A stretch of DNA of 46,946 nt from Rubrivivax sp. GTDB taxonomy: Bacteria > Pseudomonadota > Gammaproteobacteria > Burkholderiales > Burkholderiaceae_C. The notes beneath the pieces were generated by a model. It did not search any database. It was not told the origin of the DNA and saw only the letters and a list, made by a program, of their open reading frames with translations. A program made the position numbers and the translations under genes. The stretch lies in NCBI GenBank assembly GCA_016790435.1, contig JAEUPE010000053.1, positions 1-46,946 of the forward strand. Reading direction: 5' to 3'. This document shows positions 38,580-40,834 of this stretch, piece by piece; the first letter of the stretch is position 1, and every line of letters starts with the position of its first letter.

Positions 38580-39764
38580 TCAGGCCGCCGCTTCGCCGTC
38601 GGGCCGTGCCGCCAACTCCACCGGCGCGTAGTAGGGGCGGCTGCCCAGCGCGTCCACGCGAGCCCAGAACTCGGGCCCGGCGGCCAGCCCGCGCGCATCC
38701 TTCACCGCTGCCTGCCGCCACATGGCCCACGAGTCGGGATGCAGCCGTGTCGCTTCCGCCAGGAGCTCACGGGCCTCCTCGGCGTCACCGGGCCGGCCGC
38801 GGCGCAGCAGGTGTTGCGCGAGGCGAAAGCGCGCGTGCGCATCGGCGATGGCGTCCGGCGGCGGAGCGAGCCTGGCGGCCACCTGGGCCGGTTGCAGCGC
38901 ACTTGCGCTGGCCGCGCCGTGCCGCACCCAGTCACGCACGGCATCGAGATAGGCCGCCTTCACCCTGGTGCGCTCGGCCAGCGCCGCCTCGGGCATCGTG
39001 AAGGTCTTGCGGTCCATGGCGCGGAAGCCGTCGGTCGAGCCGGCCGTCTCGGGCGGGCGCACGATGCGGCCCTGCTCGTCGATCCACACCGCCTGCGGCA
39101 CGTTCACGAGGTTGTAGAGGTCGGCCACATGGTGGTCGCGGTCGATCAGGCAGGGGTAGGTCGCCCGGGCCGCTTCGATCCACGGGCGCGCGGCCTCGGG
39201 CTGATCGAGCGCCACGGCGAGCACGATGAAGCCGGGGTCCTTCAGGTCCTTGTTCAGGTCCTTGTTCAGCTCTTCGAACAGCGACTGCCACACGGGCAAG
39301 TCAGCGCGGCACCCTCACCAGGATGCCCATGTGGCGAGGAACACCTTGCGCCCACGGTAGGCCGAGAGCCGGTGCTCGCCACCCTGCAGGTCGGGCAGCG
39401 TGAAGTCGGGCGCCTGCAGCGTTGCGAGGGCGGCACCGCGCCGCGCGCTGCCCGAGCCCAACACCCAGGTGCGCGAGGCCGCATCGTGCACCACGGGCTG
39501 GCCGCTGTGGCGCCACAGGGCGGCGAGGTTCAGGCGGCCATCGCGCACAAGCGGCTCGGCACCGTCGCCCCGTGGGCGCGGCAGCGGCACGCAGGTGTCA
39601 CCGTGGCACAGGCCCTCGGGCTTCCAGGACCAGCCGGTGGCCGCCTCGATGGCGGCAGCGTCGAGCCAGAGCGCGTCGCCCTCGGCCAGGCACTCGGTCG
39701 TGGATGCGGTGCCGGTGGCCTCGGGCCACTGCGTTTCGCGCTGTTCATGCAGCAGGGTGATCAT
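38580..39764 (-). CDS. Thioredoxin-fold (redoxin/TlpA-like) selenoprotein with in-frame UGA
   Basis: One continuous frame of 395 codons is broken only by a TGA at 39317-39315 (codon 150), giving 394 aa if read as selenocysteine. The flanks are KVFLATWASW before the UGA and GCRADLPVWQSLFEEL after, so the redox motif is WASW-U-GCR where thioredoxins have a WCxxC-type motif. About residues 1-110 form an N-terminal domain with GLCHGDTCVPLP. The redoxin domain follows (APDFTLPDLQGGEHRLSAYRG, YPCLIDRDHHVADLYNLVNV, VNVPQAVWIDEQGRIV), then a helical TPR-like tail from about residue 275. GGAG upstream supports the ATG at 39764. It needs SelABCD, which are not in this window. A disabled gene is the alternative. 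Confidence 0.8.
39283..39302 (-). promoter_or_regulatory. SECIS-like hairpin downstream of the UGA codon
   Basis: Counting the U of UGA as 1, bases 16-35 read GACUUGCCCGUGUGGCAGUC. GACU pairs with AGUC, U20 is bulged, GCC pairs with GGC, and the loop CGUGU shows GU at 25-26. Bacterial SECIS elements that bind SelB have a bulged U and an apical GU at about 17 and 23-24, so the geometry is close. This was folded by eye only. Confidence 0.6.
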
Positions 39765-39919
39765 GAAAGGGGTTCTCCGGGTGGGGATGGCTGGCCGCGG
39801 ATGGCGAGTCCATCGTAGCGGCCACGCCGCGGCCGCGTCGGGCCGGTGGCCAGAATGGCGCCGCGCAGGTGGCCCGCACAAGCCGTGCGGGCCGGCGCAA
39901 CCCCGGGACACCCACCCCC

Positions 39920-40834
39920 ATGAAACGACTCGAACCCCTGCGCCACATCGAAGCCGGCGTGCTGAACATGGCCTGCCACGAGGCTGGGCCCGCCGGCGGT
40001 CCGCCGGTGCTGCTGATGCACGGCTTTCCGTACGACGTGCATGCGTACGCCGAGGTCGTGCCATTGCTGGTGGCGCAGGGCTGCCGCGTCGTCGTGCCCT
40101 ACCTGCGCGGCTTCGGGCCGACACGTTTCCTGAGCCCGGCCACGCCTCGCTCGGGCGAGCAGGCGGCGCTCGGGGCCGACTTGCTGGCGCTGATGGATGC
40201 GCTGGCCATTCCACGCGCCGTGCTCGCCGGCTACGACTGGGGCGGGCGCGCCGCCTGCGTCGTGGCGGCGCTGTGGCCCGAGCGCTGCGCCGGGCTGCTC
40301 TCGTTCAACAGCTACAACATCCAGGACATCGCCCGCGCGATGGAGCCCGATCGGCCGGAGGACGAACACCGCCTCTGGTACCAGTACTACTTCCACAGCG
40401 AGCGCGGCCGTGCCGGCCTGGCGCGCGACCGCCGCGCCGTGTGCCGGCTGCTGTGGCAGCTGTGGTCGCCGACCTGGCGCTTCGAGGACGCGGGCGACGC
40501 CACCTTCCTGCGCAGCGCCGTCGCGTTCGACAACCCGGACTTCGTCGACGTGGTCATCCACTCCTACCGCCACCGCTTCGGGCTCGTCGCGGGCGACCCG
40601 GCCTGTGCGGACATCGAGCGGCAACTGGCACGGCAGCCACCGATCACCGTGCCGGCGATCACCTTCGACGGCGCCGACGACGGCGTGCGCCCGCCGGCCG
40701 CGGCCGCGCAGCATGCGAGGCACTTCACCGGGCCGCGCTCGCACCGCCTGGTGCCCGGGGTGGGCCACAACATGCCGCAGGAGGTGCCGCAGGTGTTTGC
40801 CGACGCGGTGATGGAGCTGGTGCGCGGCGCCTGA
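39920..40834 (+). CDS. Alpha/beta hydrolase, epoxide hydrolase/dehalogenase-like
   Basis: This 304-aa cytosolic alpha/beta hydrolase has an Asp nucleophile (GYDWGGRAA near residue 105). Asp at this place marks epoxide hydrolases and haloalkane dehalogenases rather than Ser esterases. The oxyanion region HGFPYDVHAY, a lid with LWYQYYFHSERGR, a likely acid in FDGADDGVRPP and the catalytic His in VPGVGHNMPQE complete the set. The start at 39920 drops a low-complexity leader that is open from 39869. It is divergent from the selenoprotein gene (gap 155 bases) and followed by another hydrolase after 35 bases. The substrate is unknown. Confidence 0.87.
   Translation: MKRLEPLRHIEAGVLNMACHEAGPAGGPPVLLMHGFPYDVHAYAEVVPLLVAQGCRVVVPYLRGFGPTRFLSPATPRSGEQAALGADLLALMDALAIPRAVLAGYDWGGRAACVVAALWPERCAGLLSFNSYNIQDIARAMEPDRPEDEHRLWYQYYFHSERGRAGLARDRRAVCRLLWQLWSPTWRFEDAGDATFLRSAVAFDNPDFVDVVIHSYRHRFGLVAGDPACADIERQLARQPPITVPAITFDGADDGVRPPAAAAQHARHFTGPRSHRLVPGVGHNMPQEVPQVFADAVMELVRGA

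Follow-up and report, generated by a model that had tools for sequence, protein, structure and literature searches.

A redoxin gene of Rubrivivax sp. with an in-frame UGA that is very probably read as selenocysteine

Within the window, the whole 46,946-nucleotide stretch of Rubrivivax sp. DNA analysed here, one minus-strand frame runs for 149 codons to a TGA and continues beyond it for another 244, raising the question of whether it encodes two proteins, a decayed one or a single protein in which the UGA stands for an amino acid. The preliminary description had taken two adjacent frames for one, split only by this UGA, and had proposed a selenoprotein. Translation bears out the single frame, with KVFLATWASW before the TGA and GCRADLPVWQ after it, as had been quoted, and gives the read-through protein a computed mass of 43.05 kDa (Cys substituted for Sec), in agreement with the anticipated product of about 43 kDa. 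The evidence for the selenoprotein is comparative throughout, consisting of a family match, the sel genes of the genome and the exchange of TGA with Cys among relatives; on this basis, the UGA at codon 150 is very probably decoded as selenocysteine, and the gene probably acts as a thiol/selenol oxidoreductase. Features are listed in Table 1.

Table 1. Positions of the coding region and of its observed and predicted features in the window
Feature	Position	Strand	Basis
Whole coding region	39764-38580	minus	ATG at 39764, 394 codons + stop, one in-frame TGA, final stop (TGA) 38582-38580
N-terminal domain, residues 1-111, mostly beta	39432..39764	minus	AlphaFold2 model alone, pLDDT 88.9
Cys53-x4-Cys58, second Cys pair	39591..39608	minus	Invariant in 51/51 proteins and 38/38 N-terminal domains
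Thioredoxin-fold domain (AhpC-TSA/Redoxin), ResA-like, residues 117-235	39060..39416	minus	PF00578, E 7.6e-19; Foldseek, ResA 1su9/1st9
TGA very probably read as selenocysteine, residue 150, motif WASW-U-GCR	39317-39315	minus	TGA or Cys in homologues; sel genes in genome
Cys152, second Cys of the UGC motif, putative partner of Sec150	39309..39311	minus	Invariant in 51/51 aligned proteins (of 87)
Predicted bSECIS hairpin TTGCC-CGTGT-GGCAG, +18 to +32 nt from first base of TGA	39285..39299	minus	Pairing; RNAalifold
TPR-like helices, residues 312-353	38706..38831	minus	PF13428; helices in AlphaFold2 model

The initial argument against a decayed gene had been that the stop stands at the active-site position and is followed by 244 clean codons. 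The codons are open, but at the 71% GC of the window about 1.3% of frames would stay open over 244 codons by chance, which makes openness alone weak evidence; what decides is that the sequence to either side of the TGA matches the family. The read-through protein matches the NCBIfam model NF041054, 'ResA-like WAxxUGC motif-containing protein' (WAxxUGC_long), over residues 34-353 with 289 bits (282 bits in the scan of order genomes), which is below the curated cut-off of 300 bits. Each piece also matches the model separately, the one before the stop at profile positions 8-115 (93.8 bits) and the one after it at positions 117-317 (173.1 bits), so that position 116 alone remains for the TGA codon; the homology had been described as unbroken across the UGA, and it is. 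Ten chosen relatives score between 274.9 and 529.9 bits, eight of them above 300, and four of the eight genes from the order sample pass the cut-off. Because family scores straddle the cut-off on the window's branch, whose members are mostly titled Burkholderiales, annotation by the 300-bit threshold may miss copies. We class the window protein as closely related to NF041054 and placed in the same tree, not as a formal equivalog. A second redoxin-family copy was not found in the genome, where five other matches reach at most 35 bits.

In an AlphaFold2 model built from 51 sequences (pLDDT 93.9), residue 150 lies between a strand (140-146) and a helix (151-170) of the thioredoxin domain, whose top Foldseek matches are the ResA structures (E 2.3e-10). 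The TPR-like match to PF13428 scores 26.7 bits in the piece after the stop, above the cut-off of 23.5, and 20.2 bits, below it, in the full protein. A hydropathy scan of 18-residue stretches whose first residue lies between 1 and 60, used in place of a dedicated signal-peptide program, gave a maximum mean of 0.87 and thus no signal-peptide-like hydrophobic stretch near the N terminus, which suggests a cytoplasmic protein.

The modelled fold bears on the reading of the locus as two separate proteins, or as programmed termination, with the first 149 residues as one product and the remainder, possibly from a TTG start at 39299, as the other. The open-reading-frame list does show split frames, and partial termination is normal at selenocysteine codons, but such a split would cut the thioredoxin fold between the strand and helix that flank residue 150, and Cys-form relatives cross the site in one open frame; we consider two products very unlikely.

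What the codon stands for is indicated by its counterparts in relatives. At E≤1e-30, the gene is present in eight of 399 genomes of the order, counting the window's own, and every one of the eight copies contains exactly one TGA. One scan of a genome contig collection yielded 103 relatives, which were reduced to 79 distinct loci; distant relatives are missed because the query was a single protein, and Cys forms are favoured because one of the six peptide patterns carried Cys at the Sec site. These 79 loci have TGA (54), TGC (23) or TGT (2) there, three of them, all Cys forms, having been read separately as they fell outside the first motif pattern. With the eight order genes added, the window's among them, the 87 genes comprise 62 with TGA, 23 with TGC, 2 with TGT and none with any other codon, a set that is not independent, in that two order genes are protein-identical to two of the 79 and genomes may be double-counted. 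The residue after Sec is Gly in 60 of the 62 TGA forms and Ser in the other 2. The UGA had initially been placed exactly at the attacking Cys of thioredoxin, a position at which homologues should have Cys. Relatives do carry either TGA (62/87) or Cys (25/87) at this codon, and that part stands; the spacing is not that of CxxC, a single residue separating Sec from Cys in the UGC motif.

The selenocysteine genes that the preliminary description had proposed to look for are present in the window's genome, a draft assembly of 5.39 Mb in 302 contigs that is 80.8% complete. The searches place selA, selB and tRNA-Sec next to one another on contig C19, with selD on contig C272, and ARAGORN identifies the clustered tRNA as tRNA-Sec with anticodon tca. 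Outside this cluster, a second tRNA match just over the cut-off (C135) is tRNA-Ser by ARAGORN, and a second selB match over the cut-off, a 390-residue frame (C129), covers the GTPase part only and is probably another elongation factor. At a loose E-value, the tRNA, selB and selD searches each match in every one of 14 control genomes; with the cut-offs applied, matches occur in 5 (tRNA), 2 (selB), 2 (selD) and 1 (selA) of the 14. For relatives, selA was searched for in 49 genomes, which represent each of the 25 Cys loci and, from the 54 TGA loci, 25 chosen for spread before searching; it was present in 21 of 25 TGA-form genomes vs 8 of 24 Cys-form genomes (Fisher p 0.0004). The 4 of 25 TGA-form genomes without a selA match include those of two close relatives of the window gene (L030 and L045); assembly incompleteness is the likely explanation.

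The same genome holds a second probable selenoprotein, a formate dehydrogenase alpha subunit whose gene contains a single in-frame TGA (G000 contig C230, L108). Its downstream stretch has CC-AGUCU-GG, which resembles CC-CGUGU-GG of the redoxin gene.

At +18 to +32 from the first base of the TGA, the TGA-form genes retain YUGYC, a five-nucleotide loop and GGCAG, the 3′ arm consisting of Trp-Gln codons that are invariant in these forms. The hairpin can pair in 62/62 TGA genes (53/53 distinct) vs 9/25 Cys genes, with about 45% expected under synonymous recoding; the loop is CGUGU in 44/53 distinct TGA genes vs 1/25 Cys genes; and RNAalifold recovers the stem from the TGA genes but not from the Cys genes. 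Among the 62 TGA genes, 24 have U as the first base of the stem and 21 have it as the fourth; 17 have U at neither place, and none has it at both. No compensatory changes were found in 35 sequences chosen from the 62, and fold energy showed no clear excess over synonymous recoding (mean z −0.38 for TGA and 0.03 for Cys forms, p 0.055; window copy z −0.06). No Rfam family reached its gathering score in the window, and near the gene there were only three matches, with E of 0.5 to 3.9. In the window copy, the first 45 nucleotides of the hairpin region prefer a different fold when taken alone, and the +9 to +42 stretch folds at minimum energy as an extended hairpin with the same loop and a bulged U. 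We rejected this extended bulged-U stem as a family feature: across 35 sequences it pairs in 85% of cells, with the A-U pair in 7 of 35.

The hairpin and the codon counts also bear on whether the UGA might be suppressed as Trp or some other residue instead of Sec. Any residue would keep the frame, but the 86 other genes show no sense codon except Cys at the site, the genome has a tRNA-Sec with anticodon tca, and most Cys forms cannot form the hairpin; suppression of this kind is highly improbable. A chance nonsense TGA in a dying gene, or a sequencing error, would fit a single in-frame stop in a draft assembly of 302 contigs but is exceedingly unlikely, being already refuted by the homologue codons, as the same TGA stands in 61 other genes, which makes a base-call error untenable, and is exchanged with Cys only, with an open and conserved frame past it and sel genes in the genome.

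Selenocysteine at codon 150 is also in keeping with how Sec and Cys forms are distributed on a tree of 85 proteins (83 different; the fragments L032 and L051 were left out), a tree whose deepest splits are weakly supported and in which long branches have been flagged. The distribution requires 8 Sec/Cys changes, at least 6 of them forced by well-supported branches, vs about 22 with shuffled labels. Cys forms (L077; L049 and the myxobacterial L046-L048) lie inside a well-supported clade that contains the window protein together with 19 further Sec forms, which fits with Sec having been lost recently. The three myxobacterial forms nest among mostly beta-proteobacterial Sec forms, a placement that suggests gene transfer together with a change from Sec to Cys. 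Such repeated exchange in one tree provides natural pairs for asking what selenium contributes. Some metagenome bins carry titles that look doubtful: the genes of two titled Bordetella parapertussis (L035, L036) are close to genes from Burkholderiales bins (L038, L033), and one titled Klebsiella pneumoniae (L080) groups on the tree with gammaproteobacterial and further bins.

For the insertion of Sec, and for the location, chemistry and substrate of the UGC redoxin, we infer the following. SelB with Sec-tRNA(Sec) would insert selenocysteine at the UGA of codon 150, with the short hairpin beginning 18 nucleotides downstream as its guide. The product would be cytoplasmic and have three parts, namely an N-terminal beta domain that carries the invariant Cys pair, a thioredoxin fold of the ResA/TlpA type and TPR-like helices, and its Sec-Gly-Cys active site would sit just ahead of the first helix of the thioredoxin fold. 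The Sec selenolate would attack a disulfide or peroxide, Cys152 would then resolve the Sec as a selenenylsulfide, and re-reduction might, at a guess, pass through Cys53/Cys58.

These two cysteines, conserved without exception in both Sec and Cys forms, lie on model strands 51-54 and 57-59 of the N-terminal domain. The window's domain has no Pfam match at E 0.1; among 38 such domains, four Pfam families are each weakly matched by one member; and the domain model matches no PDB fold at E≤0.001 (best E 2.1). Across 300 genomes of the order, with at most 16 candidates scored per genome, only the eight that carry the complete gene have the domain, apart from one weak match (E 8e-4). From its sequence, the CxxxxC domain is perhaps a second redox site. 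We entertain only tentatively, and think it rather unlikely, that the protein is a two-site redox machine in which this domain is an undescribed dithiol or metal module passing electrons to the Sec-Gly-Cys site; were that so, the protein would carry its own reductase or substrate-docking step.

No conserved gene neighbourhood was seen in 36 chosen loci and the window: once the gene and the shadow frames that overlap it are set aside, the most widely shared neighbours, by reading of their sequences a short-chain dehydrogenase, an enoyl-CoA hydratase and a solute-binding protein, match 5 other loci each. The divergent neighbour at 39869-40834 (plus strand) is an alpha/beta hydrolase (PF00561) and is not among the shared neighbours listed for relatives. 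No plasmid copies of the redoxin gene were found at 1e-20.

While the selenoprotein reading of the preliminary description holds, the kind of selenoprotein is already known, through the NCBIfam model and through UGC-containing selenoproteins in print since 2008. With NF041054, the window protein shares the WAxxUGC motif (as WASWUGC) in a thioredoxin fold and a match that spans the TGA; it differs in its score below the cut-off and in leaving 7 profile positions unmatched at the start and 37 at the end. Zhang and Gladyshev tabulated a 'Prx-like (UGC-containing)' selenoprotein (pfam00578, UGC) in 2008 and found it commoner in nonmarine samples (PMC2398784), and reviews of 2022 and 2026, in which the accessions MDE0950781.1 and MBL6689828.1 are given, list UGC-containing Prx-like and TlpA-family selenoproteins (PMC9312934, PMC13188914). 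The window protein likewise combines a PF00578 or TlpA-like domain with UGC, as in the published UGC-containing Prx-like protein and 'UGC-containing TlpA disulfide reductase', and its family is likely the same as these, the comparison being by domain and motif. NF041054 is not named in the 2026 review (PMC13188914), the term 'WAxxUGC' was not found in a literature search, and the corresponding passages of the three papers (PMC2398784, PMC9312934, PMC13188914) give no function for the family.

Among proteins of known structure, ResA (1su9, 1st9) has the thioredoxin-fold domain in common with the window protein. ResA is a membrane-anchored, extracytoplasmic protein with a CxxC active site. The window protein differs from it in having extra N- and C-terminal domains, with no export signal or membrane anchor seen by hydropathy, and, where ResA and TlpA have CxxC, it has UGC, with one residue between the predicted selenocysteine and its cysteine partner.
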